NCBI GenBank assembly: GCA_003130815.1
Contig: QFDA01000001.1
Span: 138,131 to 202,130 of the forward strand
Origin: Bacteroidetes bacterium SCGC AAA795-G10
GTDB lineage: Bacteria; Bacteroidota; Bacteroidia; Flavobacteriales; Flavobacteriaceae
Length of the DNA stretch: 64,000 nucleotides
Direction: 5' to 3'
Positions 1 to 49,009 of this stretch are shown one piece after another. The notes under the pieces are model-generated. The model did no database searches. It saw nothing but the letters and a program-made list of their open reading frames with translations, and had not been told where the DNA came from. Each line of letters starts with the position of its first letter. The stretch's first letter is position 1. The translations under genes and the position numbers were made by a program.

Positions 1-3000
1 TTAAAAATTGGTACATGATATTCAAAATAACTATCAATCGTATTCATACTTTGATCTCTATTTATATCTTCTGTATCAGGCTCAGTTGTATTACCTCGAT
101 CATTATCGCTGAATTCAATTGGAGTATTGTTTTCAAATCCATTATAATTTTTATATCGCTCAAGTATACTCCCTTCTGCTTGTAGATAATATTCATAATT
201 ATCACCTGCAGGATCATTGGCTGGACCATTTGTGAAAACCTCAGACTCCTCTTGATCACTAAGACCATCTAATCCAACATCCTGTAAAATACGATCCTCA
301 GAATTTGAATTAAAAGCATATACTAAAGATTGGGTAGCAGGGACTCTACCCCAGGGAGTTTCATATGTAGGTGTAATTTCGCTATTACTTGGTAGTCCGT
401 TTTCAAATTGTTTTCTACCATCGCGAAGTATATCTTCAGATATATTACCTAAATGAAATACTAATTCCCCTAATTCGTCATTTTCTGAAGTATTATCTGA
501 AAATGTATCTAGTAACCAAAATTCTATAAACTCAACATTTGACTGTTCAAAATTTGTTGCATTTAGTGTGCGTGTAATCCCAGCCCAGTTTTTTTTTGGG
601 TCTAATAAAAATTGTGATAATTCTGCATTATTATAAGGTCCTTTTTCTTTCGGATAAAATGCCAAATCTAAGGTTGGTAGTCTACTAATCATCCCTTGAA
701 CTAAATCTTGTTCTGGAAAAAGTTCATTTATAGATATACTTCTGGTTTCATTACTCGATATATCATCATTATTTATTCCTGGTGGTTGTCTAGAATAAAA
801 AATTTGATCAATAGAATACCATGCTAGTTTAGATCTTCCGTATCCACTTTCAAGTCCCTGTAGCGATGATCCTAAAACTCCCTTAATCGGAACACTAGAA
901 AGGTTCCATGCATTAAATCCTTTTACATCAATATTTGTTTGTGCCCCTTCAAAATCATCTATATAAACGTTTGTTTCACCATTTAGTCTTGTATTTCTAG
1001 GATCATTTGCATTTATGCTTGCAACTTCACCTCTAAATGAAATTTGAGAGGGAATACTAGTTCTTATAGTTGGCCACTTATTAACCAAACGAGTTAAAAA
1101 GGGAAGTTCAGTAGAAAAATTTGTATTTAAGCCTTTCATTGTATTATTTACTGGTTCGGTTCCATAATTTGCTTTTTGAGTAAGAGGATTTTCACTCAGA
1201 TTTATAAGCGTTCCTCCAACATAGAAATTATCACTTAGCCGATGTTTCAAATTAATTCCAGAGAATCTTTTATTCTGTTGATTAAAAAACGAATTATTTT
1301 CAACTGAAATATCGATTGGAATATTTGATGCTTTAAGACCTTCATCTAATATTTTTACCCTTCCTATTTCATAATTTACTGTATAATCCAATCCTTCCTG
1401 AAGAATTCTTCCTCCTGCTGTAACTCTAACAGATCCTCTTGGAATATTAAAAGCTCCTATATTTATACCATCACCTCCTTCAGACTTATATCTTCCCTTG
1501 AGTTGGAATTTATTTTTTTCGGTAAATTCTAAAGCAGCTGCTTTTGTAAGAGTATACATTTCCTTAAAAACATATTTTTTTTGATTTGCATTAAACGTAT
1601 TATCAATATCATAATTCTCTTTCGCTGAACTTGGATTATCTAAAATCTCAAATAAAAATTCTCCAAATGGCTCAACTTTAGTAAAGATTATTCTTCCAAA
1701 ACGAGGTTCAATAGTAATACCAGGAAGAAAGTCAAAAAATCCGTCTCCACTAGGTACTAAATCTTGATATGCATTTAGTTTATCGAGTTCTAATGTGTTT
1801 AATAATATTTCATTATCTAAATTTTCTGGCCATATGGATTTATCAACTGGAGTTAAATAATTAATTGGTGATGGATCACTATACAAAATATTTAATCGAA
1901 AATCCTCCTCGGAAAGTTGAAATGCTCCTGTATTGTAGATATTTTTCATCATCAAATCCCAAACTGGCTGGCGAACATCAGTTAAACTACTTTTTAACAT
2001 TTTGACAATTAAACTATTTGTTTGAACTTGTTCCTGTTGACCTTGCCCTTGAATGAAATTTTGATTTTGTTGAATTACTGAAGTACCTGGAATATCTCCA
2101 TTAGCAAATTCTCCAACCTGATACGTCTTACCCAAATGAGTAAATTGAAAAGCAACTCCTAAAACTTCATCATTACTTAGACGCTGATTAAGAGATATAT
2201 ATCCTAATTGAGGGTGGAATGTATATTCTTGAGGGCTAAGTTTTCTTGCACTTTCTAATACTGCATAATCAAATCCCTCATTTGCGTTAATATTTTCAAA
2301 AGCATTGCTAACTGTTGCTATGTCCCTTATTTTTGTATTGAGTACACCGTTAAAACCAATTTCGTCTGGATCAAGTTTATTTACGCTGTTATCAGGCGGG
2401 GCAAAAGGATTTGAAGAATTTATAAAACCCTGATAATTATCATCTAATTTAGTATTATCAGGGTTAGGTTCTCCCAAGTCTTGAAGTGCTATTATATTTC
2501 TTACATTTTGAGTTTGGTATCCCCTATTTGTGACCCAAACTTCTATACGTGTAATTTGTACTGGTGAATTAATGTATGGATAATTAGCTAAAAATAGATC
2601 ATAGTTATCTCTAAAATATTGACTAATGAAAAAATGTCGATCTTCCTCGTAATCTAAAGCAAAAAAGTTGAACTCTTGTAATCTTCCTCCTCCTTGGGAA
2701 ACTATATTTTGTGATTGAGATCTTTGTTCTGAAAATACTCCAGATATAGTTGTATTTCCAAATTTTAAATCTGTACGTACACCAAATAAACTTTGTGCAC
2801 CTTGTATTAGATTACTATTTATTGGCATATTGACATTCCCAATATCTATATTTTGAATAATAGCATCTTCTGTTATTTTACCTCTTAAGTATTCTGATAC
2901 CCTGTTTCCTACAAGCTCTGGATTATTAGGAAGCTGTTTTACATTATTTTTAAGATTATCAATTTTTTGTCTTACTTTATTTAATGAATTTTCTGATTCA

Positions 3001-3761
3001 CTTATAGTTTCTTCTGTGTCACCAATTGTTTGACTTATCTCGTTAACAGCTTCATTTATAGTTGAAATATTTGAACCTAATTTACCTGGAATTATTTCTG
3101 TTAATTCCGATAATTTGGGAGGGTTAAATTCTATTTTTACCAAGTTTTGAAAATCAAAAGTAGATTCGGTATCATAATTAGCTGTAATTTGAAGGCGTTC
3201 ACCAATATTTCCTAATAAACTTAAACTGATTCTTTGGTCAAAATCGAAACCTGGTGATCTACGGTTAATAACTGAGGCAATAGGATTATCGCTTCTTTGG
3301 TATCGGTATCCTAAATCCACTCCTATCGAACCTTGAGGTTTTATATCAATGGTATTACTACCAAAAATTGATTCAAAAAACTCATTGTTTACATAAAGCT
3401 CTGGAAGTAAATTTTTTTGTGCATCTTCGATATCTGAGCCGTATCCACTAAGTGCTTGAATTTTTTCTTTAAAATACCTACTCATTTGTTCCTTTAGAAT
3501 AAATGATTCATATTCAGCAACAGTCATGACCATCGGGGTACTAATAGGATAACCTCCTATTTCCTCAGTTAGAATATAGAGATTACTTTCAGGGTCATAG
3601 GTGTATAAGGTTTCAATGCTACTTGACTTTGGTTCAATAATGGAACCTATTTCAGCAGCTTTTTGTCCAAAAACAATTTTACTAACTAGCATCATCAAGA
3701 TGAAAATGATGATGAAGTTTTTGGATGGTTTAAAAACTACATTTTCAGATATTTCAATCAA
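1..3761 (-). CDS. sprA: SprA/Sov, outer-membrane translocon of the type IX secretion system (3' end beyond window)
   Basis: SprA is the very large outer-membrane beta-barrel through which type IX secretion substrates (gliding adhesins, surface enzymes) leave the cell. About 1,250 N-terminal codons of an expected roughly 2,400 are present, open to the left edge, where the frame reads ...SYFEYHVPIF. There is no ATG at the head of the signal peptide: the first ATGs (3695 and 3692) fall inside the hydrophobic stretch FIIIFILMMLVSKIVFGQ. I therefore place the start at an in-frame TTG at 3761, four bases after the ruvA stop, which gives a basic n-region, a hydrophobic core and a cleavage site near FGQ. 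It is the last visible gene of a maeB-ruvA-sprA run. Family identity is from overall sequence resemblance and the familiar ruvA-sprA neighbourhood. The start codon is inference. Confidence 0.88.
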   Translation of the reverse strand, partial: MIEISENVVFKPSKNFIIIFILMMLVSKIVFGQKAAEIGSIIEPKSSSIETLYTYDPESNLYILTEEIGGYPISTPMVMTVAEYESFILKEQMSRYFKEKIQALSGYGSDIEDAQKNLLPELYVNNEFFESIFGSNTIDIKPQGSIGVDLGYRYQRSDNPIASVINRRSPGFDFDQRISLSLLGNIGERLQITANYDTESTFDFQNLVKIEFNPPKLSELTEIIPGKLGSNISTINEAVNEISQTIGDTEETISESENSLNKVRQKIDNLKNNVKQLPNNPELVGNRVSEYLRGKITEDAIIQNIDIGNVNMPINSNLIQGAQSLFGVRTDLKFGNTTISGVFSEQRSQSQNIVSQGGGRLQEFNFFALDYEEDRHFFISQYFRDNYDLFLANYPYINSPVQITRIEVWVTNRGYQTQNVRNIIALQDLGEPNPDNTKLDDNYQGFINSSNPFAPPDNSVNKLDPDEIGFNGVLNTKIRDIATVSNAFENINANEGFDYAVLESARKLSPQEYTFHPQLGYISLNQRLSNDEVLGVAFQFTHLGKTYQVGEFANGDIPGTSVIQQNQNFIQGQGQQEQVQTNSLIVKMLKSSLTDVRQPVWDLMMKNIYNTGAFQLSEEDFRLNILYSDPSPINYLTPVDKSIWPENLDNEILLNTLELDKLNAYQDLVPSGDGFFDFLPGITIEPRFGRIIFTKVEPFGEFLFEILDNPSSAKENYDIDNTFNANQKKYVFKEMYTLTKAAALEFTEKNKFQLKGRYKSEGGDGINIGAFNIPRGSVRVTAGGRILQEGLDYTVNYEIGRVKILDEGLKASNIPIDISVENNSFFNQQNKRFSGINLKHRLSDNFYVGGTLINLSENPLTQKANYGTEPVNNTMKGLNTNFSTELPFLTRLVNKWPTIRTSIPSQISFRGEVASINANDPRNTRLNGETNVYIDDFEGAQTNIDVKGFNAWNLSSVPIKGVLGSSLQGLESGYGRSKLAWYSIDQIFYSRQPPGINNDDISSNETRSISINELFPEQDLVQGMISRLPTLDLAFYPKEKGPYNNAELSQFLLDPKKNWAGITRTLNATNFEQSNVEFIEFWLLDTFSDNTSENDELGELVFHLGNISEDILRDGRKQFENGLPSNSEITPTYETPWGRVPATQSLVYAFNSNSEDRILQDVGLDGLSDQEESEVFTNGPANDPAGDNYEYYLQAEGSILERYKNYNGFENNTPIEFSDNDRGNTTEPDTEDINRDQSMNTIDSYFEYHVPIF

Positions 3762-8018: not shown

Positions 8019-9381
8019 CAGTTGTTGTATTTAGGGTTAATAACCTGTCAGAAGTTTTTTTTGTTTTTAATCTGCTAGCAATATATGAACCTACTTTTTG
8101 GCCCTGAGAAACACCCTCAGTAATTGCCATCATGTAATGTATACCTCCATACAGTCTTGATATTGCTGCCTCTTCAGAAGCATGTATAAAAGACTTATAA
8201 CTTCTTTCAGGAAGACCATAGGCTATTTCTGTAGTATCTACAAAACTGAAATTATCTCCGTAGATTTTTGTTAAAGTTACTGCTGCAGCTCTTGAAATTA
8301 CGGAGTGTCCACTTGTATATTCGGGGAATGGAGGGGTTTGTAATAATGGTAGCCATTCCTCATCGTAATGTTCATTAATTAATGTCTCTGGTCTAACGAC
8401 CAAAGTTCTCCATTTTTCATCCCAACAACTTATAAATGCGTCAAACAAAGCAATAGAAACATTAGCATATGCATTTATTGTATCTGCAAAAGAACTTTCA
8501 GCTTTTCTAGTTGCTATAGAAGTTATTCCAATCCAATGTCCTCCAGGTGTGATCTTTTTTGTAGCAAACATAGAATGTCCTTTGTGATGAGTTACATATG
8601 GATTGCAATCCCAAAACTTTGCAATTTCTACTTGTTCTTCAGTAAGTCCATTTATAACATTAAAAACCTCCATCAACTGTTTATGAAAAGGACTGTCTTT
8701 TTTTAAATCAAATGGTAAAGGGTCTTTTGGGGGAAATTGGTTTGACGAATCTAAAACCATAGTTCTAATTTCTTGCCAATGAGGTTCAATTCCATCCATA
8801 TAATCAGGTGGAGTTGGCTTCCAATACTTATCTTCTTCTTTGATAGCATATTTTGGAAATGTACGGGTTTGGCTATACATATCTTTAGAAGCCCATTCTA
8901 GAATAAACTCTGCTACTTCTTCTCCATAATTTTTAGAAGCTTTTATTACTTTTTTTGGAACATTGTACTCGTTTAATTTTTGATAAAATTCATTTTCAAA
9001 AGATTCCATTTTATCTTGTGAAAAAATTAGTTTTTTGCCAACACTATTAAAAGAAAATAGAGCAGCAAGGTTTGGAATTATAGCCTTATTATCTGATTTT
9101 GGAATTTCATTCAAATCTTTGACCTGGCCTGCAAGGCTGTTGAAGCTTTCAGGCTGATACGCAGCGATTATCTCATATGCAGCTATTGTTGGATATAAAT
9201 AGACTCTTGAAGCAACAGGTGGTGAAAAAATATCGTAAACTACAATGTCCGTAAGGTTTTGCATTACAGACTGGAATAATTCAGGATTATCTAATTTTTG
9301 AATATATTCCCTACTTTCATGTTGATTACATGATAATTGGATAAATAAGACTGAAAATATTAAAGCTCTAAGATTCCTCAT
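8002..9381 (-). CDS. Vanadium-dependent haloperoxidase / PAP2-superfamily lipoprotein
   Basis: Exported protein of about 459 residues with a short lipoprotein signal (MRNLRALIFSVLFIQLSC). The open frame extends 15 codons further upstream, but this ATG at 9381 heads a proper signal peptide. The C-terminal half carries the PAP2/vanadium-chloroperoxidase pattern: VVRPET, then PEYTSGHS, then SRLYGGIHY, which supply the phosphate- or vanadate-binding Arg, Ser-Gly-His, and Arg/His. Family members either oxidise halides with peroxide or act as acid phosphatases, and the sequence does not decide which. The gene overlaps the downstream MFS gene by 17 bases. A TAnnTTTG element at 9461-9468 suggests an internal promoter in addition to transcription from susC. 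Confidence 0.85.
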   Translation of the reverse strand: MRNLRALIFSVLFIQLSCNQHESREYIQKLDNPELFQSVMQNLTDIVVYDIFSPPVASRVYLYPTIAAYEIIAAYQPESFNSLAGQVKDLNEIPKSDNKAIIPNLAALFSFNSVGKKLIFSQDKMESFENEFYQKLNEYNVPKKVIKASKNYGEEVAEFILEWASKDMYSQTRTFPKYAIKEEDKYWKPTPPDYMDGIEPHWQEIRTMVLDSSNQFPPKDPLPFDLKKDSPFHKQLMEVFNVINGLTEEQVEIAKFWDCNPYVTHHKGHSMFATKKITPGGHWIGITSIATRKAESSFADTINAYANVSIALFDAFISCWDEKWRTLVVRPETLINEHYDEEWLPLLQTPPFPEYTSGHSVISRAAAVTLTKIYGDNFSFVDTTEIAYGLPERSYKSFIHASEEAAISRLYGGIHYMMAITEGVSQGQKVGSYIASRLKTKKTSDRLLTLNTTTGEKKP

Positions 9382-41011: not shown

Positions 41012-41902
41012 TTAGATTAGGTTTTGAAGATTTTTCTTAAAGAATTTTGCTGATGTTGCTGCACTTTTCATTGAATTATATTTAAAATTACCCCCTTGCT
41101 CTATGAAGTAATATTCTAATCCGCTTTTTTCAGAATTAGGAAGAAGTTTAGCGTAATCAATTGATCCATTACCCAATTCACTATAATCTCTTGTGGTTTT
41201 ATCCATATCTTTTATATGCCACATCGTATAACGTCCTGGATGTTGGTCAACTAGCTCTTTTGGAGTTTTCCCTGAATGTACAACCCAATACATGTCCATC
41301 TGGAGTTTGACAAAATCAGAATCTGTTACTTTAATTAAAATTTCGTGACCTGTTGTACCGTTCCAATCTTCGAATTCGTAACCATGATTATGATACGCAA
41401 ATTTCAAACCAGCAGAATTTACTTGTTCTCCAATCTGATTAAGCTTGTTTGCTAAAATTTTGAAACTTTCTGAATTACGCTGATCAGGATGTACCCATGG
41501 CCAGGTTATATAGGATGCTTTAAGTTTTTTAGATGCCTCTATGCAACTATCAACAAACCACTTTAGTTTATCTTTATTAGAATTAAAATAATCAGAAAAT
41601 CCAAAATGACCACTAGTGGTTGAAAGACCTAGATCCTTTAAAATTTGACTGAAATCAGAAATATTTAAACCGTAAATTTTATTAGTATTTGGATCGTAAC
41701 CATAAGTTTCAAAATCTTCATAACCCATTAACTTCAATTTTTTAAGGGTTTCAATTGGATCTTTTTCCATTGCATCACGAACACTAAAAAGCTGAAGACC
41801 CATTTTATATTTTGAAAATGAATTACATGCTTCTATTGGAAGCCCTGCAAGTGATATCCCACCTAAAAGTCCAATTTGATTTAAAAAATTACGTCTTCTC
41901 AT
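41012..41902 (-). CDS. Exported sugar phosphate isomerase/epimerase-like TIM barrel
   Basis: AP-endonuclease-2/xylose-isomerase-like TIM-barrel protein of 296 residues. The N-terminus has a twin-arginine signal (RRRNFLNQIGLLGG) followed by AGLPIEACN, so it is probably folded in the cytoplasm and exported, perhaps as a lipoprotein. Metal-site residues fit the family: FAYHNHGYEFE, LQMDMYWVVHSG, MWHIKDMD, YYFIEQGG. Related periplasmic TIM barrels act in keto-sugar/glycoside conversion together with GMC oxidoreductases, and one such gene lies 7 kb away at 49096. It diverges from the PTS operon across 96 bases. Confidence 0.88.
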   Translation of the reverse strand: MRRRNFLNQIGLLGGISLAGLPIEACNSFSKYKMGLQLFSVRDAMEKDPIETLKKLKLMGYEDFETYGYDPNTNKIYGLNISDFSQILKDLGLSTTSGHFGFSDYFNSNKDKLKWFVDSCIEASKKLKASYITWPWVHPDQRNSESFKILANKLNQIGEQVNSAGLKFAYHNHGYEFEDWNGTTGHEILIKVTDSDFVKLQMDMYWVVHSGKTPKELVDQHPGRYTMWHIKDMDKTTRDYSELGNGSIDYAKLLPNSEKSGLEYYFIEQGGNFKYNSMKSAATSAKFFKKNLQNLI

Positions 41903-41998
41903 CTTCGAAAAATTTAAAATTAATTAAAAAAAGCTATCAAAAAGCGAGAAAAATGTAATTTTAGTTACCAATAAATGTGTAATTAATATTAATATCGT

Positions 41999-43390
41999 AT
42001 GAACTTTCTTGATGACGCAGAACCATTTCGAATAAAAATGGTGGAGCCAATTAGAAAAACCACAAGAGAAGAAAGAGAGAAACTAGTTAAAGCAGCAGAT
42101 TTCAATATTTTTAAAATACCTGCAGAAAATGTATTTATAGACATGTTGACAGACAGTGGTACTTCGGCAATGAGTAGTAAGCAATGGGGTGGTATAATGA
42201 CGGGTGACGAATCTTATGCAGGAAGTTCAAGTTTTTATCATCTCAGAGATTCAGTACAAGACATAATGGGTTTCCCATATGTTCAACCTACCCATCAAGG
42301 CAGAGCTGCAGACTTCATAATGTCGCAACTTTATGCTTCCAAAGGTGGATATATATTGGGCAATTTACATTTTGACAGTTTTAAAGGTCACTCAGAAATT
42401 GCAGGGTCAATACCTGTAGATCTAATAATTGAAGAAGGCAGAACGGCTAATTCAAATCCTTATCCATTTAAGGGAAATATGGATTTGGAAAAACTTGAAA
42501 AATTTATTTCAGAAAAGGGGAGCCAAAATATTCCACTCATTATAATTACAGTTACATCAAATGGAAATGGAGGACAACCCGTTTCAATGGAAAATATTAG
42601 GAGCGTTTCATTAATAGCTAAAGCAAATAATATTCCTTTAATGATAGATGCTGCAAGATTTGCAGAAAATTGTTACTTCATAAAAAAAAGAGAAAAAGGA
42701 TATGATAATAAATCGGTTAAAGAAATTGCCAAAGAATTATTCTCTTATGCAGATGGATGCGTAATGAGTTCTAAAAAAGATGGATTAGTAAACATTGGTG
42801 GATTCATTTGTACACGACACGAAGAATTATTTCCAATGATTAATCAATTGGCAATTATCAACGAAGGTTTTGTCACTTATGGTGGCATGAGTGGAAGAGA
42901 TCTGGAAGCACTAGCGATTGGTCTGCAAGAAGGGATTGATGAAGAATATCTTAAATATAGAATCGAACAAGTTCAATATCTTGGGGAAGAATTATTTAAT
43001 CGAGGTATACCTATTATTCTTCCCACGGGTGGGCATGGAGTATATATTGATGCACAAAAATTTTATCCACACATTCCTCAAAAAGAATTTCCTGGTCAAG
43101 CTCTAGTAATAGAATTGTACAAGACAGCTGGTGTTAGGGGTGTTGAGCTAGGCTCCTGTGCTTTTTCAAAAAAAGATAAAGAAACTGGAAAGATAATTTT
43201 TCCTGATTTAGAACTGGTACGTCTCACAGTTTCAAGAAGAGTTTACACAAATAGACATATGGATGTTGTAATTAATGCTCTAGAAGATGTTTTTAAAAGG
43301 AGAGATAAAATGAAGGGATTAAAACTTACCTATGAAGGTCCTATTATTAGTTTACGTCATTTTACTGCAAAGTTTGAGATGATAACATAA
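41999..43390 (+). CDS. Tryptophanase/tyrosine phenol-lyase family PLP enzyme (TnaA-like specificity residues)
   Basis: PLP-dependent beta-eliminating lyase of 463 residues, a family that cleaves tryptophan or tyrosine to indole or phenol, pyruvate and ammonia. Family landmarks: FRIKMVEPI, LLTDSGTSAMS, PTHQGRAAD, the PLP lysine in MSSKKD (Lys260), and Arg408 in VRLTVSRRVYT for the substrate carboxylate. At positions that separate the two enzymes it resembles tryptophanase: Asp126 in HFDSFKGHS, Leu384 in GVELG where tyrosine phenol-lyase has Arg, and His454 in LRHFTAKF where that enzyme has Phe. Other stretches look more like tyrosine phenol-lyase. It is first in an operon with a sugar-type PTS, 10 bases before the alcohol dehydrogenase, which is odd for an amino-acid lyase; the real substrate may differ. 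Confidence 0.85.
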   Translation: MNFLDDAEPFRIKMVEPIRKTTREEREKLVKAADFNIFKIPAENVFIDMLTDSGTSAMSSKQWGGIMTGDESYAGSSSFYHLRDSVQDIMGFPYVQPTHQGRAADFIMSQLYASKGGYILGNLHFDSFKGHSEIAGSIPVDLIIEEGRTANSNPYPFKGNMDLEKLEKFISEKGSQNIPLIIITVTSNGNGGQPVSMENIRSVSLIAKANNIPLMIDAARFAENCYFIKKREKGYDNKSVKEIAKELFSYADGCVMSSKKDGLVNIGGFICTRHEELFPMINQLAIINEGFVTYGGMSGRDLEALAIGLQEGIDEEYLKYRIEQVQYLGEELFNRGIPIILPTGGHGVYIDAQKFYPHIPQKEFPGQALVIELYKTAGVRGVELGSCAFSKKDKETGKIIFPDLELVRLTVSRRVYTNRHMDVVINALEDVFKRRDKMKGLKLTYEGPIISLRHFTAKFEMIT

Positions 43391-43400
43391 AACAAGAAAT

Positions 43401-44558
43401 ATGGATACTACTTCATTTAATTTTTTCACTCCCACTAAACTTATTTTTGGTGGTGGAAGTCTTAAAAATATAAAGCAAATTGCGCCACTTTATGGTAAAA
43501 AATGTTTGCTAGTATCTCGGCCAAAAGACGGAAGTTTAAAGGCTATTTACAAACAAATTGAAACTCTACTTGATTCTACAGGTGTTTCTGTAAGTTTTTT
43601 TGATGAGATTGTCCCTAATCCAACTTTAGAAGGTATAAACAGGGGGGTTAAAATTGCAAGTGAAAATAAAGTAGACTTTGTTTTAGGTGTAGGTGGTGGA
43701 TCAGTAATGGACTCTGCAAAATTAATTGCATTATTATATGAATCAAATGGGATAGTCGACTGGAATAATGCTTTTTCAAACTATAATCATCCTTTTGAAT
43801 ATGTTGCCTCAAAAACTTCAAGTCTACCCTTTATTGCAATTTCAACAACTTCAGGCACTGGATCACAGTGTACTCAAGCAGCGGTTGTAAGTGACACTAA
43901 AAACAAAGAAAAAATTACACTTTTCCATAGAGATCTCTTTCCTAAAGTTGCCATAATAGATCCCGAACTGATGCTTTCTGTTCCTGCTGGGGTAACAGCT
44001 GCGACAGGTTTTGATGCTTTTACTCATGCTTTTGAAAGCTACCTAGGACAAAGGACATCTCCTTTAACAGAATATCTTTCTCTAGAAACAATTCGACTAG
44101 TTGTTGAATATCTACCAAAAGCAATTCAAAAACCTAACTCTATTGAATTTAGAACAAAATTAGCTTGGGCGGACACAGCCGCTGGTATATGCTTATCAAA
44201 TGGTGGTGCAGATTTACCTCATCCACTAGGCGAAATAATAGGTGGAATATGTCAGAGAATAGCTCATGGTGAAACTCTAGCTATTGTTTACCCTGCATTC
44301 CTAGAATTCAAGGAAAAAATTGCTGCAGAAAAATTCAGAAATATTGCTTCTTATCTAGGAATAGAAAAAACTCCGAAGGCACTAACCAATGAAGTAATTG
44401 GGTTATTAAAAACTACTGATTTAATTAGATCAAAATCTCGTGCTCTAATTACTTTAAATGAACAAGAAGAAATTCTTTCTCATCCTTTGTTGAAAAAATT
44501 AGATCCAAAAAATAGTCAGAAAATATTAAGTATAATGAGTCAAAGTATCGAAGAATAA
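43401..44558 (+). CDS. Iron-containing (group III) alcohol dehydrogenase
   Basis: NAD(P)-dependent metal alcohol dehydrogenase of 385 residues. The nucleotide-binding part has FGGGSLKNI near the start and GVGGGSVMDSAKL around residue 97-110. The metal ligands are expected from TGFDAFTHAFESY, ADLPHPLGE and RIAHGETLAIVYP. Family members reduce or oxidise aldehydes, keto groups or polyols such as lactaldehyde, 1,3-propanediol or 4-hydroxybutyrate; the sequence alone does not say which. It lies between the TnaA-like lyase and the epimerase-like gene with gaps of 10 and 7 bases, so it probably works in the same pathway. Confidence 0.9.
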   Translation: MDTTSFNFFTPTKLIFGGGSLKNIKQIAPLYGKKCLLVSRPKDGSLKAIYKQIETLLDSTGVSVSFFDEIVPNPTLEGINRGVKIASENKVDFVLGVGGGSVMDSAKLIALLYESNGIVDWNNAFSNYNHPFEYVASKTSSLPFIAISTTSGTGSQCTQAAVVSDTKNKEKITLFHRDLFPKVAIIDPELMLSVPAGVTAATGFDAFTHAFESYLGQRTSPLTEYLSLETIRLVVEYLPKAIQKPNSIEFRTKLAWADTAAGICLSNGGADLPHPLGEIIGGICQRIAHGETLAIVYPAFLEFKEKIAAEKFRNIASYLGIEKTPKALTNEVIGLLKTTDLIRSKSRALITLNEQEEILSHPLLKKLDPKNSQKILSIMSQSIEE

Positions 44559-44565
44559 AGTATCA

Positions 44566-45267
44566 ATGAGAAAAATCAAAATAGCTGCTGGATTAGCACA
44601 TGTCGACTATGGAAATATTGCAGATTTAGTAAAGCAAGTAACAGTGGCTGGAGCAGATTACATTCACTCAGATGCAGCTGATATGCATGATTTAAAAAAT
44701 ATGCAACTTATGGGTGGACACCAAATAATTAGTGGAATTCGAAAGCAAACTAAACTACCCATAGAATGTCATATTTATACCAAAACTTGTGATCTTTTAT
44801 TTATTGACAAGTTAGCTGAAGTGGGAACAAACATGCTAATAATACCTGCTGAACATTTCATTGGGGCTCCCCTTGCTTACATAATTAATTGGTGTAGAGA
44901 AAGAAATATGAAGATCGGACTAACTATAGGTCTTTACACCCCACTCTCATTTGTTGAAGAGTCAATTTATGATATTGATAGATTACACATTGTAGTTCAT
45001 GGGGTAGATGAAACCGATGGTAAAGATAATTGGGGTTGGAGAAAATCATGCTTGGATCTTTTACAAAGAGCAAGAAAGCTAGTTGACGAAAAAAATCCAA
45101 ATTGTGAAATTGCTATTGATGGCGGAATAAGGGCTGATAATTTAAATCCTCTTATTTCATGTAATCCAGATGTAGTAGTCCTATCATCAGCCATCTTTAA
45201 AGATCCTGATGGAATCCAAAAGGCAATGATAAAATGTAGAAATGCTATTGAAAAAGCCCAACGTTAA
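44566..45267 (+). CDS. Ribulose-phosphate 3-epimerase-like TIM barrel
   Basis: A (beta/alpha)8 protein of 233 residues in the Rpe/AlsE/SgcE superfamily. Acid and metal-binding positions are seen in ADYIHSDAADMHD (His and Asp, as in the IHVDVMDG of Rpe), in the second His of IECHIYTK, and in the catalytic Asp of IAIDGGIRADN. It departs from housekeeping Rpe around these motifs, and a pentose-pathway rpe is probably elsewhere. Related enzymes in PTS operons (AlsE for allulose-6-phosphate, SgcE in E. coli) act on phosphorylated ketoses, so an epimerase for the imported sugar phosphate is a reasonable inference. It is 10 bases before the EIIA gene. Confidence 0.82.
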   Translation: MRKIKIAAGLAHVDYGNIADLVKQVTVAGADYIHSDAADMHDLKNMQLMGGHQIISGIRKQTKLPIECHIYTKTCDLLFIDKLAEVGTNMLIIPAEHFIGAPLAYIINWCRERNMKIGLTIGLYTPLSFVEESIYDIDRLHIVVHGVDETDGKDNWGWRKSCLDLLQRARKLVDEKNPNCEIAIDGGIRADNLNPLISCNPDVVVLSSAIFKDPDGIQKAMIKCRNAIEKAQR

Positions 45268-45277
45268 ATTTTAAAAA

Positions 45278-45715
45278 ATGAATCTGCTTTCTCCAGCTTT
45301 TATTGAGCTTAACTCTGAATTAAAAAATAAATCTCACGCTTTAAATTTTCTTGTAAACAAATTAGATGATAAAGGATGTTTATCTGACAAAAGGGAATAT
45401 TTTGATGCTGTTTTAAAACGTGAAGAATTATTGTCAACTTATTGCGGTTATAATATTGCAATACCTCATGCGGTTTCAAAAGCAGTTAAAAAAGTAAGCT
45501 TCGGTTTTTGCCGAACCGTTAGTTTGGAATGGGATAAAAATGATGATGAAGTTAAATTTATATTAATTCTTGCAATACCGTATTCAAATAAAAAGGAAGA
45601 TAATCTTCATATAGATTTGATGTCTCAGATAGCTAGCTTAGCATTAGAGGAAAAAGTAAGAAAGTCTTGGGAAGAAGCAAAATCTATCGAAGAAATTTCA
45701 AAAACATTTCAATAA
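45278..45715 (+). CDS. PTS EIIA component, fructose/mannitol family
   Basis: Cytoplasmic phosphocarrier of 145 residues that takes phosphate from HPr and passes it to EIIB. The phosphorylated histidine is His64 in YNIAIPHAVS, the standard IPH motif of this family. The rest (FVLNFLVNKL-type helix early, ILILAIPYSN and HIDLMSQIASLA later) fits the fold. It is a free-standing domain, as are all other PTS parts in this operon. EIIC follows after 10 bases. Confidence 0.9.
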   Translation: MNLLSPAFIELNSELKNKSHALNFLVNKLDDKGCLSDKREYFDAVLKREELLSTYCGYNIAIPHAVSKAVKKVSFGFCRTVSLEWDKNDDEVKFILILAIPYSNKKEDNLHIDLMSQIASLALEEKVRKSWEEAKSIEEISKTFQ

Positions 45716-45725
45716 ATTATTTACT

Positions 45726-46787
45726 ATGGATTTTTGGAAAGAAACAGGAAATATTTTTAGAGAAACTGGAACTCACTTTAGAACTGGAGTTTCCTATATG
45801 CTGCCAATTCTCCTTATAGGGGGTATGGTAGGAAGTCTAGCTGTATTGGGAGGCGGAAGTTACGAAGATGATTCTATTTGGAAAATATTTAAAGATGTTG
45901 GCACGATAGGCTTAACTTATTTTGTGCCTATTATGGCTGCCTACACAGCATACAGTATTAGTGATACTCCAGGTATTGCACCTGGATTCATAGTTGGTGT
46001 TTTAGCCCAACAAATTGATACAGGTTATCTAGGAGCACTACTCGGTGGGATTTTAGTAGGTTATGCTACCTACATGCTTATGAAACTAGAACTTCCAGAA
46101 ATACTTCAGAGCACTTGGGGATTTGTAGCTCCAGTTCTTAGTACACTTATAGTAGTAATCTTTATGGTATATCTCCTCGGTCCGCCAATTGCCTGGCTCA
46201 TGGGAGTTATTTCCTCTTTCCTTTCTAATTTAGGCGAAGAGGGCTCTGCAATTATGGGGGCAGTTATGGGATTTTTGGGAGGAATTGATTATGGAGGTCC
46301 CTTTAGTAAGACTCAAAGTACCTTTGCAACAGCAGTTATGGATTTAGATTTATATGTACCATTAGGAATTTGTGGAAGTATTGTTATCATACCTCCTCTT
46401 GGAATGTGTTTAGCAACATTTTTAAAACCAAAACTTTACACAAAAGTAGAGCGTAATTATGCTAAGAGTTCCTGGATATATTCAATAATTGGGGGGTTTA
46501 CTGAAATTGTTATCCCATTAGCAGTGGGTGATATTGTACGTGTAACAATAGCTACTGTTTTGGGGTGTACAATTGGAGGTACTATTGCTGGTATTTTTTT
46601 ATTAGAGTTAAGTACTCCTGTCTTGGGAATTGCACAATGGTTTTTTTATGACAAGCCATTAATATTTGTTATTTGTGTAGTAATTGGTTCTCTAGTTACT
46701 GCACTGACAGCAAATTTTCTAAAAAGCATAAGCAATAGAGATATTGATGCACTCGATGCTACAGATGCTGAATTAAATGAAACCTAA
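45726..46787 (+). CDS. PTS EIIC membrane permease, fructose-like family
   Basis: Integral membrane sugar permease of 353 residues with about nine to ten hydrophobic segments. Family motifs: TGVSYMLPILLIGGMVGSL in the first helix (residues about 20-38), SDTPGIAPGFIVG, GALLGGILVGYA, and GGIDYGGPFSKTQS. It moves the substrate across the inner membrane while EIIB phosphorylates it. It is shorter than fused EIIBC proteins because EIIB is the separate next gene, 10 bases downstream. Substrate specificity cannot be read from the sequence. Confidence 0.92.
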   Translation: MDFWKETGNIFRETGTHFRTGVSYMLPILLIGGMVGSLAVLGGGSYEDDSIWKIFKDVGTIGLTYFVPIMAAYTAYSISDTPGIAPGFIVGVLAQQIDTGYLGALLGGILVGYATYMLMKLELPEILQSTWGFVAPVLSTLIVVIFMVYLLGPPIAWLMGVISSFLSNLGEEGSAIMGAVMGFLGGIDYGGPFSKTQSTFATAVMDLDLYVPLGICGSIVIIPPLGMCLATFLKPKLYTKVERNYAKSSWIYSIIGGFTEIVIPLAVGDIVRVTIATVLGCTIGGTIAGIFLLELSTPVLGIAQWFFYDKPLIFVICVVIGSLVTALTANFLKSISNRDIDALDATDAELNET

Positions 46788-46797
46788 ATAAATAATT

Positions 46798-47109
46798 ATG
46801 AAAATTGCATTAATTACAGCTTGCCTAGCTGGAGTAGCACACAGTAAAATGGCAGCTTTAGCTTTAAAAAAAGAAGCCAAAATAAGAGGTCACGAAATAT
46901 GTATAGAAGAACAAGGAGGGCATAAAATTCCTGTGAAGATCTCAAAAGAACAAATTGAACAAGCGGATGTTGTTATAATTGCAAAAATGGTTTCTATCTC
47001 AGGTAAGGACCGTTTTAAAGGGAAAAACATTTTGGATGTAAGTGTGAATGAGGCTTTGCGAAAACCTAGTCTTATAATGGACAAAGCAGAATTGTTAATT
47101 AAAAAATAG
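46798..47109 (+). CDS. PTS EIIB component, fructose family
   Basis: Phosphocarrier of 103 residues with the phosphocysteine Cys9 in ITACLAGVAHSKMAA, matching the TACPTGVAHT-type loop of fructose-family EIIB. EEQGGHKIP corresponds to the usual ETQGS stretch. It donates phosphate to the substrate bound in EIIC. A stand-alone EIIB is less usual in this family, where it is often fused to EIIC. HPr follows within a few bases. Confidence 0.92.
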   Translation: MKIALITACLAGVAHSKMAALALKKEAKIRGHEICIEEQGGHKIPVKISKEQIEQADVVIIAKMVSISGKDRFKGKNILDVSVNEALRKPSLIMDKAELLIKK

Positions 47110-47113
47110 GTTG

Positions 47114-47377
47114 ATGATTAGTTTTTCAATAAACATTGAGGATGACATTGGTTTTCATGCAAGAACAGCCTCTTTATTTGCGAAAAAAGCCTCTACATTT
47201 AATTCTGATGTTTTTGTGGAATTCAATGGTAAAAAAGTAAGTGCGAAGAGTACATTATCGTTAATGACTCTTGGGGTTAAATCTAGGGACCAAATTATGC
47301 TTATAGCTGAAGGAAGTGACGAAAAAGAAGCACACGAAGCTTTAGTATCATACATTAAAAATAATTTCAAAGAGTAG
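47114..47377 (+). CDS. ptsH: PTS phosphocarrier protein HPr
   Basis: General PTS phosphocarrier of 87 residues. Started at ATG 47114, the active histidine falls exactly at His15 (GFHARTAS, with Arg17), and the regulatory serine falls at Ser46 (AKSTLSLM), the numbering of classical HPr. An in-frame TTG just before the ATG is also possible. The intact Ser46 leaves room for HPr-kinase control, but no hprK is in this window. The gene ends in TAG, and the reading frame continues without interruption into enzyme I. Confidence 0.93.
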   Translation: MISFSINIEDDIGFHARTASLFAKKASTFNSDVFVEFNGKKVSAKSTLSLMTLGVKSRDQIMLIAEGSDEKEAHEALVSYIKNNFKE

Positions 47378-47380
47378 ACT

Positions 47381-49009
47381 ATCAAAACACTTCAAGGAAT
47401 AGTAGCAAGTTGGGGATTAGCTATTGGTGAGGCACAGATATTATACTCCAATGATCCTATTGAGATAAAAAAACAAACAGGTATTAATTCAGAGAATGAA
47501 ATAAGTAACCTAAAAAAAGCTATAGATAAGACATTAAAAAAAATAGATTCTCAAAAAGTAAATCTTTCTGTAAACCTTTCGGAAAAAGAACTTGAAATTT
47601 ACACAGCATTTAACAGCATTGTTAACGATCCAGAAGTTTTGGATCAGACCATAGAGTTAATTAAAAAACAAAATTTTAACGCTGCATATTCGTATTATCA
47701 AGTAACTCGAAATTTTATTTCTGAATTAGAAAGCCTTGATGATGAGTATCTCAATAGAAGAGCCGAAGATCTAAAAATGCTTTCGGATATGGTTTTAAAA
47801 TCGTTACTAGGTAATGAAAAAGTTACTTCTAAAATTAACAATCCCTCAATAGTTATTGCTGAAAAGATAGACCCTAGTCAAATTGCAGAGATAAATCAAA
47901 CAAACTTATTAGGCATTATTACAACGGAAGGTGGAGTTACAGATCATTCATCAATTATTGCCAAAGCATTAGGTATTCCCTATATTTTGGGAGTAAAAAA
48001 TGTTGTTAATATTATCAGAAACGGGGATAAAATAATACTGGATAGCAAAAATAAATGCATTCATATAAATCCTGAAAAAGAGATTTGTCAAAAATTTGAG
48101 AAAGAGATTTTAAAGGAAAAATCTATAAATAAAAATCAACTCATTAAGTCAAAATATGAAGCAATTACAAAGTCTGGTATAAGGGTTGACATTATGGCAA
48201 ATGTTGGATCACTAGATGATGCTATACAAGCAAAAAGATTTGGCGCTGATGGGATCGGATTATTGAGAACTGAACTTTGCTTTCTTGAAAGTTATAAAAT
48301 GCCAGACGAAAAATCACAGCTTGAACTTTATTCTAAAATTATAAACAACTTACCTGAAAAAACTCACACTTTAAGACTTATTGATTTTGGAAGCGATAAA
48401 AAGGTTTCTTACCTACCTTTACAAAATGAGGAAAATCCAGCCTTGGGTCAAAGAGCCCTTCGTTTAGGTTTTTCTTATTACGAAACTCTTTTAAAACCAC
48501 AAATAAGAGCTTTTTTAAAACTTTCTAAAGATTTTAATATAAAAATTCTTTGCCCAATGATTGCAAATTCCAATGACTTGGATAAAATTATAACTGCAAT
48601 TCATAAGGAACAAAAAGAGTTAAACCAACAGGGTGAGAATATTGAAAAATTACCTCCTATTGGAATTATGGTTGAAGTTCCTAATGTAGCCTTAAACCCT
48701 AATGATTTTATTTCAAAAGCAGATTTCTTTTCTTTTGGAACTAATGATCTTGCTCAATTTTTGATGGCTGCAGATCGTACAAACAAAAATGTTTCACATT
48801 ATATTGAATCTGGTAATCGAAGTGTTTTAAAACTAATTCGGAATTTTGCTTTAGAGGTAATTCCCAAGAAAAAAGAAATTAGCATTTGTGGGGAACTAGC
48901 TTCTAATATTAATTACTTGAATGAATTTATTGGTATAGGCATAAGTAGTTTGAGTATGCCTCCAATGTTAATCCCCAAAATAAAAGAAGAAATAAGATCA
49001 CTAAAATAA
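47381..49009 (+). CDS. ptsI: PTS enzyme I, with apparent ATC start codon
   Basis: PEP:protein phosphotransferase that starts the PTS cascade by phosphorylating HPr. From the codon at 47381 the protein reads IKTLQGIVASWGLAIGEA, aligning with the usual MKTLKGI...SPGIAIG start of enzyme I, with ATC in place of ATG. On this numbering the phosphohistidine in GGVTDHSSI is residue 189, as in E. coli. Later motifs are intact: MVEVPNVAL, DFFSFGTNDLAQFLMAADR and the catalytic Cys of ISICGELAS. Total is about 542 residues. No ATG, GTG or TTG exists in frame between the HPr stop (47375-47377) and a TTG at 47639, which would remove 86 residues. Options are an ATC start, read-through of TAG giving an HPr-EI fusion, or a base error. 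Confidence 0.88.
   Translation: MKTLQGIVASWGLAIGEAQILYSNDPIEIKKQTGINSENEISNLKKAIDKTLKKIDSQKVNLSVNLSEKELEIYTAFNSIVNDPEVLDQTIELIKKQNFNAAYSYYQVTRNFISELESLDDEYLNRRAEDLKMLSDMVLKSLLGNEKVTSKINNPSIVIAEKIDPSQIAEINQTNLLGIITTEGGVTDHSSIIAKALGIPYILGVKNVVNIIRNGDKIILDSKNKCIHINPEKEICQKFEKEILKEKSINKNQLIKSKYEAITKSGIRVDIMANVGSLDDAIQAKRFGADGIGLLRTELCFLESYKMPDEKSQLELYSKIINNLPEKTHTLRLIDFGSDKKVSYLPLQNEENPALGQRALRLGFSYYETLLKPQIRAFLKLSKDFNIKILCPMIANSNDLDKIITAIHKEQKELNQQGENIEKLPPIGIMVEVPNVALNPNDFISKADFFSFGTNDLAQFLMAADRTNKNVSHYIESGNRSVLKLIRNFALEVIPKKKEISICGELASNINYLNEFIGIGISSLSMPPMLIPKIKEEIRSLK

Follow-up and report, generated by a model that had tools for sequence, protein, structure and literature searches.

What does a marine flavobacterium import and break down with an operon that joins a complete phosphotransferase system (PTS) to three metabolic enzymes? 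The question is raised by eight genes at positions 41999–49009 of a 64,000-nucleotide stretch (hereafter the window; positions 138131–202130 of contig QFDA01000001.1) from Bacteroidetes bacterium SCGC AAA795-G10, whose genome is a 1.93-Mb draft, 88.7% complete. The genes encode, in order, a tryptophanase-like lyase, an iron-type alcohol dehydrogenase (Fe-ADH), a protein resembling ribulose-phosphate 3-epimerase (Rpe) that we call RpeL, and the PTS proteins EIIA, EIIC, EIIB, HPr and EI. We are confident that they form a genuine, dedicated catabolic operon without a known pathway. Our best, though tentative, reading is that it serves the dedicated uptake and breakdown of a compound in which a sugar- or polyol-like moiety is linked to an amino acid or small peptide.

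Conservation of the operon and its phosphotransfer chain

A scan of genome contigs with EIIC yielded 20 loci, 19 of them flavobacterial (besides the window) and one clostridial. The gene order might have been peculiar to this genome; instead, 18 of the 19 other flavobacterial loci show the identical eight-gene order and strand (in L033, EI runs to the contig end). Operon flanks vary between flavobacterial subgroups, and the eight genes therefore behave as a unit. Across these loci, the lyase is as conserved as EIIC and EIIB. Identity between the window and the Maribacter copy (L036) is 85% for RpeL, 78% for EIIB, 76% for the lyase and 74% for EIIC, and 59% for Fe-ADH, 55% for HPr, 47% for EIIA and 45% for EI. 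Constraint is thus strongest on the proteins that probably contact the substrate and weaker on Fe-ADH. The Maribacter copy is immediately preceded by a gene for a Nudix-type NrtR/AraR-like regulator (2543–3316; NrtR_WHD and AraR_C matches).

Near-identical operon copies are found on contigs of uncultured marine Bacteroidetes/Flavobacteriaceae, and EIIC is 80% identical in a metagenome-assembled genome (MAG) titled Flavobacteria bacterium MS024-2A. We take the carrier group to be the NS5 marine group/MS024-2A, a placement of our own. Among 246 genomes sampled across the order, only the window's own encodes this EIIC; all frequencies given here for Bacteroidota and Clostridiales refer to such genome samples. 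EI reached its model cut-off in 3 of 149 family genomes, two of the three in the window's genus; in this sample, then, flavobacteria seldom encode a full PTS, as the initial annotation had stated. A 2008 survey, in its available part, reports the PTS to be absent from Bacteroidetes (PMC2405797), and the available main text of an NS5 niche study contains none of the terms phosphotransferase, PTS, fructose and tryptophanase (PMC9122927).

Operon proteins were assigned to families by Pfam and NCBIfam scans with curated cut-offs, as follows:

41999..43390, + strand: lyase of the TnaA/tyrosine phenol-lyase (TPL) fold, predicted to be beta-eliminating and dependent on pyridoxal phosphate (PLP), with an apparently changed pocket; 463 residues (PF01212; NCBIfam PRK13238; residue test; tree)
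43401..44558, + strand: iron-type alcohol dehydrogenase, RpeL-linked subfamily; 385 residues (PF00465/PF25137; metal-ligand residues)
44566..45267, + strand: RpeL, an Rpe-fold protein that retains the catalytic set and has a different phosphate loop; 233 residues (PF00834; residue table; tree; fold)
45278..45715, + strand: EIIA, fructose-type, His64; 145 residues (PF00359)
45726..46787, + strand: EIIC, fructose family, divergent; 353 residues (TIGR01427 above cut-off)
46798..47109, + strand: EIIB, Cys9; 103 residues (PF02302)
47111..47377, + strand: HPr, His15/Ser46, start TTG 47111 or ATG 47114; 88 residues (PF00381; TIGR01003 above cut-off)
47381..49009, + strand: EI, His189, Cys503, ATC start codon; 542 residues (TIGR01417 above cut-off)

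The tight, co-directional packing described initially is confirmed, with intergenic gaps of 10, 7, 10, 10, 10, 1 and 3 bases in gene order. The nearest upstream gene (41012–41902, − strand) is divergent and encodes a TIM barrel protein of the xylose-isomerase-like kind; judged by eye, its N-terminus resembles a signal peptide. It is also upstream in L017, L019, L021 and L022, and not in L023, L026, L028–L030, L032, L034 or L036. About 45 bases 5′ of the lyase start (about 41950–41960) there is a TAnnTTTA-like element, seen by eye in several relatives as well, which is a possible Bacteroidetes −7 promoter box.

The PTS is complete: the EI, HPr and EIIA histidines, the EIIB cysteine and EIIC are all encoded within the operon, and the catalytic residues reported as intact are indeed present (EIIA His64, EIIB Cys9, EI His189, and HPr His15/Ser46 counted from the second Met, or His16/Ser47 from the first). 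The sequence thereby specifies a chain from phosphoenolpyruvate (PEP) through EI, HPr, EIIA and EIIB to EIIC, linked to three enzymes in one gene run. The operon EI is the sole PF00391 match and the sole EI-family match in the draft genome. A single EI could also suit a PTS that serves phosphorylation-based regulation only, without transport, but the operon encodes a full EIIC membrane protein conserved about as well as EIIB, and we find such a role scarcely credible.

The 5′ end of the EI gene has no ATG, GTG or TTG start, and a listing of open reading frames (ORFs) alone yields a 456-residue fragment. Because the HPr stop (47375–47377) lies in the EI frame two codons upstream, ATC at 47381 is the likely start. 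The start is ATC, right behind HPr, in the window and eight relatives (L017–L024), ATT in seven (L025–L029, L034 and L036, with an alternative in-frame TTG nine codons further upstream in L027), TTG in L030 and ATG in L031–L033; those of L027, L030–L033 and L036 were placed by extending the alignment. The predicted non-AUG start is conserved across most copies and is missed by ORF listing. AUU and AUC start codons are rare, infC being an example, so that EI may be produced at a low level or its translation may be coupled to that of HPr.

EIIC scores above the cut-off of TIGR01427 (fructose-specific EIIC), and similar genes are called a fructose PTS in the available part of PMC10942906, as expected if this were an ordinary fructose PTS with passenger genes. 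The window PTS shares its EII family and the order of phosphoryl transfer with the fructose system fruBKA, but lacks fruK, and its EIIC is only 28% identical to E. coli FruA, which is no closer than MngA (33%) or FrwC (33%); the values for FrvB and FryC are 32% and 25%. A tight grouping of this EIIC with the fructose permeases that accompany fruK is thus not seen. By contrast, an Acinetobacter EIIC at 34% identity does adjoin a 1-phosphofructokinase gene. The absence of a kinase noted initially is borne out as far as this enzyme is concerned: no 1-phosphofructokinase was found in the operon (NCBIfam scan), and none of the 38 genus genomes has one above the TIGR03168 cut-off, with weaker PfkB-family matches in 37. 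No kinase would be required in the pathway that we propose, since the PTS itself phosphorylates. The three enzymes, moreover, accompany the PTS in 18 of the 19 loci. Together, these points make an ordinary fructose PTS very improbable.

Departures of the lyase and RpeL from their named types

The lyase passes the cut-off of the NCBIfam subfamily PRK13238 (‘tryptophanase’) and falls below those of three equivalog models, TIGR02617 (532 of 826 bits required), TIGR02618 (566 of 721) and NF053783 (592 of 750). We compared 13 operon lyases (the window and 12 of the 18 lyase-bearing loci) with 26 other TnaA/TPL-like proteins, 4 of which have TPL-type residues. Of these 26, 22 come from 19 Bacteroidota loci; the rest are E. 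coli TnaA, a Photobacterium protein and two Clostridium proteins. The operon lyases form a separate clade with support of 100/100. All 13 keep Tyr73, Arg102, Asp126, Asp217, Arg220, Lys260, Arg408 and His454; we take Lys260 to be the PLP lysine and Arg408 the arginine that binds the substrate carboxylate, and the roles of the other numbered sites are likewise presumed. Asp126 and His454 correspond to Asp137 and His463 of E. coli TnaA.

At 22 positions, a residue common to all 13 operon lyases occurs in none of the 26 others, although the Bacteroidota members of that set are best matches and remoter lyases could share some of these residues. The 22 include Ser127-Phe128 (Thr-Thr in all 26 others), Gly189-Asn190, Cys387-Ala388, two one-residue insertions and Leu384, which occupies the site of TPL Arg381. 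Of 247 genomes sampled in the class, 80 (the window's own among them) encode a homologue at E ≤ 1e-100; the closest one outside the operon has 57% identity. The predicted structure is poor (mean pLDDT 56) and was not used to map the 22 positions.

The operon lyase thus shares its fold and the sites of PLP chemistry with tryptophanase and TPL and differs from both in its insertions and, as judged from residues, in its side-chain pocket, which supports the earlier suggestion of a lyase with changed specificity. It might still be a tryptophanase or TPL in an operon that couples amino-acid breakdown to PTS signalling: the subfamily cut-off is passed, and the PLP and acid–base sites, including Asp126 and His454, are those of tryptophanase. 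Against this stand the three missed equivalog cut-offs, the 22 positions and the separate clade, and the idea is further weakened because EIIC and EIIB are present and transport is therefore encoded. We consider it improbable, and neither plain enzyme is supported as the identity of the lyase.

RpeL scores 91.7 bits against the TIGR01163 cut-off of 212.6 for ribulose-phosphate 3-epimerase. Its residues were tabulated in 19 proteins (the window, 11 of the 19 flavobacterial loci, six clostridial and one Photobacterium) and set against 20 Rpe proteins, 19 from Bacteroidota and that of E. coli; one of 20 Rpe loci (L046) gave no usable ORF, and the partial RpeL of L079 was excluded from counts and tree. 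Full-length RpeL proteins from three phyla form one clade (support 100/100) with a very long branch at its base. All 19 keep His34, Asp36, His69 and Asp185, equivalent to E. coli Rpe His34, Asp36, His68 and Asp177, which we take to be the metal and acid–base residues. In all 19, Ser9 is replaced by Gly, Gly199 by Ser, and the methionines at E. coli positions 38, 70 and 139 by Ala, Tyr and Val, whereas all 20 Rpe proteins keep these residues. In place of the Rpe loop NPGFGGQ stands a loop with four extra residues, which in the window reads HGVDETDGKDNWGW. Ser9, the three methionines and the phosphate-binding residues are, as we understand it, active-site features of Rpe.

The AlphaFold model of RpeL (pLDDT 83) has Rpe structures as its nearest folds, so the fold says nothing about the substrate; its low-confidence segments, 39–48 and 147–150, coincide with the two altered loops. 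With its catalytic residues kept and its phosphate grip changed, RpeL is still expected to catalyse a metal-assisted proton transfer, on a substrate that it binds in another way. It shares fold and metal/acid–base set with Rpe and with D-allulose-6-phosphate 3-epimerase (AlsE), and differs from them at Ser9, Met38, Met70, Met139, NPGFGGQ and Gly199; E. coli AlsE itself retains most of the Rpe features lost in RpeL. Given these replacements, plain Rpe or AlsE is unsupported as its identity. At the level of sequence, both the RpeL and the lyase families have departed from their named types.

RpeL and Fe-ADH in other PTS settings

Outside the flavobacteria, the best relatives of RpeL are those of Clostridiales, at 71–74% identity, and of Photobacterium sp. 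DA100, at 57%. Of 225 genomes from the order to which Clostridium G631 belongs, six (G631 included) encode RpeL, as does one of 348 genomes of the phylum sample, G631 itself; among the matches listed for 395 Bacteroidota genomes, other RpeL matches reach 32% identity at most. G631 also has a second, truncated RpeL (L079:9397–9879; 63% over 158 residues), whose neighbouring ORF has no Pfam match. The operon Fe-ADH contains Asp205, His209, His274 and His289, presumably the metal ligands, and reaches no NCBIfam equivalog cut-off. It is 42–45% identical to RpeL-adjacent Fe-ADHs of Clostridia and Photobacterium and 28% to an unlinked one in clostridial L088. In 72,556 plasmid records, its sole match at E ≤ 1e-60 was from Photobacterium, where it is the next ORF after RpeL, 43 bases on; the Photobacterium RpeL was the only RpeL match above 30% among the matches listed for these records.

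The Photobacterium run (L067) comprises genes for a HAD protein, RpeL, Fe-ADH, a second HAD protein, transaldolase, transketolase, RpiA, a PepV-like M20 dipeptidase and a malX/glucose-type EIIBC. On the opposite strand, a regulator gene (8167–8934) scores above the equivalog cut-off of the ascorbate regulator UlaR (325 versus 244 bits), and no ula genes were noticed among the L067 ORFs. The six clostridial RpeL loci (L078 and L085–L089, with L078 and L089 from one genus) all have an EIIBC, a PepV-like M20 dipeptidase and a PRD regulator; Fe-ADH is present in five, an FSA/TalC aldolase in four and a HAD protein in three, with genes on either strand. The two EIIBC proteins scanned reached no curated cut-off. 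In the stretches of L067, L078, L085 and L087–L089, no EI or HPr gene was noticed, although no model search for them was made there. The clostridial EIIC found in our scan is 50% identical to that of the window; its neighbourhood (L035/L100) encodes EIIA, EIIB, a PRD regulator, a pair of M29-like proteins and an ABC transporter of the oligopeptide type with an SBP_bac_5 protein.

The initial annotation had allowed that the three enzymes might never be linked to a PTS elsewhere. RpeL and Fe-ADH are so linked, in Clostridia and Photobacterium; the lyase was seen to be PTS-linked only in flavobacteria. Like the window, six modules (L067, L078, L085 and L087–L089) combine RpeL, the same Fe-ADH subfamily, a PTS and an amino-acid-related enzyme, but theirs are a glucose-family EIIBC and an M20 dipeptidase, whereas the window has a fructose-family EII and a TnaA-fold lyase; a Pfam scan found no peptidase among the operon proteins. 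The neighbourhoods of the window, the RpeL modules and L035/L100 are thus three unlike PTS settings, each of which brings in an amino-acid or peptide enzyme by means of non-homologous parts. We infer that the RpeL–Fe-ADH pair is the core, around which lineages can swap the carrier and the enzyme for the amino-acid side. We found no published description of the clostridial and Photobacterium modules.

To our knowledge, the orphan PTS operons of E. coli have long gone unexplained. They too place a PTS beside metallopeptidases, an Rpe-family protein, an FSA-type aldolase or GldA, and are annotated as putative: fry has M42 (YpdE) and M24 (YpdF) peptidases, frv an M42 peptidase (FrvX), sgc an M42 peptidase (SgcX) and the Rpe-family SgcE, and frw lies near fsaB and gldA. 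They differ from the window in lacking a TnaA-type lyase, and their parts are not orthologous to those of the window, so they are a parallel and not members of the same system. SgcE, whose branch in the tree is very long, is not part of the RpeL clade, and E. coli genomes gave no match to the Photobacterium RpeL–Fe-ADH DNA. According to the available part of a 2026 study, sgc is induced on nitrogen-containing carbon sources, mutants show no growth defect and the substrate is not known; its authors propose a pentitol link (PMC13343008).

That proposal, together with the transaldolase, transketolase and RpiA of the Photobacterium module and the aldolase in four of six clostridial loci, would fit a simpler scheme. 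A plain rare sugar or polyol would be imported, RpeL and Fe-ADH would feed the pentose-phosphate pathway, and the lyase or peptidases would supply nitrogen, leaving the imported compound untouched. Yet all three kinds of neighbourhood carry an amino-acid or peptide enzyme, and the flavobacterial lyase is the first gene, is conserved like EIIC and EIIB, and has a pocket apparently unlike those of the 26 lyases compared. We regard this scheme as possible but doubtful.

A proposed joined substrate and its implications

For the operon as a pathway for a joined substrate, we propose the following route. EIIC would import and phosphorylate a solute whose sugar- or polyol-like moiety bears an amino acid or small peptide. 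From this, the TnaA-fold lyase would strip the amino-acid part by PLP-dependent beta-elimination, giving pyruvate, ammonia and a sugar-phosphate. In a metal-dependent step like that of Rpe, RpeL would shift a proton adjacent to a carbonyl, by epimerisation or enolisation, and Fe-ADH would perform one redox step. The product may enter the pentose-phosphate/triose pool, as suggested by the Tal, Tkt, RpiA or FSA carried by relatives. The substrate suggested initially, with a sugar-like and an amino-acid-like part, is plausible.

Several observations weigh against this proposal. The lyase is absent from the clostridial and Photobacterium modules, its homologues there (48–54%) sitting elsewhere, and L086 has neither Fe-ADH nor FSA within about 9 kb. 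The peptide-linked clostridial EIIC occurs in 1 of 218 clostridial genomes, and the shared ‘amino-acid side’ is an analogy, because peptidase and lyase chemistries differ. The cassette is accessory, given that EIIC is found in 15 of 38 genus genomes and in 2 of the 7 that are at least 90% complete. No regulator gene directly adjoins the window copy. One MAG (L031, 8249–9547) lacks the lyase and Fe-ADH 5′ of RpeL; this looks like clean loss or an assembly fault, since another (L032, 5663–9535) has the same flanks yet contains both genes. Finally, the authors of PMC10942906, in the available part, take the PTS genes of Maribacter halichondriae Hal144 as serving fructose uptake and also propose an N-acetylglucosamine PTS.

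The same text lists fruAb, fruA, ptsH, ptsI, tnaA and hxlA (3-hexulose-6-phosphate synthase) for Hal144, absent from five compared Maribacter, and an M24 peptidase with the same pattern of presence and absence as the PTS genes (PMC10942906). Read from this published gene list, Hal144 probably carries the operon described here, with RpeL called hxlA. As a cultured sponge strain, it would allow the substrate to be sought at the bench. We found no description of the eight-gene set in the open-licence literature, and the available part of PMC11203769 makes no mention of pairing a dipeptidase with a lyase.

A wider view, which we think rather unlikely, is that RpeL and Fe-ADH mark an undescribed pathway in at least three phyla that imports sugar–amino-acid or sugar–peptide conjugates via any PTS, with RpeL performing new chemistry on the Rpe fold and the lyase acting as a sugar-conjugate beta-lyase. 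RpeL could, for example, catalyse the 2,3-enolisation of a phosphorylated ketosamine, expelling the amine, and Fe-ADH (in Clostridia, also FSA) would finish the sugar. If this were true, a class of substrate could be assigned by the same reasoning to the fry, frv and sgc operons of E. coli.

A conserved, self-contained PTS cassette in marine flavobacteria would point to a nutrient pool missed by searches for SusCD/TonB systems, and its likeness to the orphan PTS operons of E. coli makes an old question testable.

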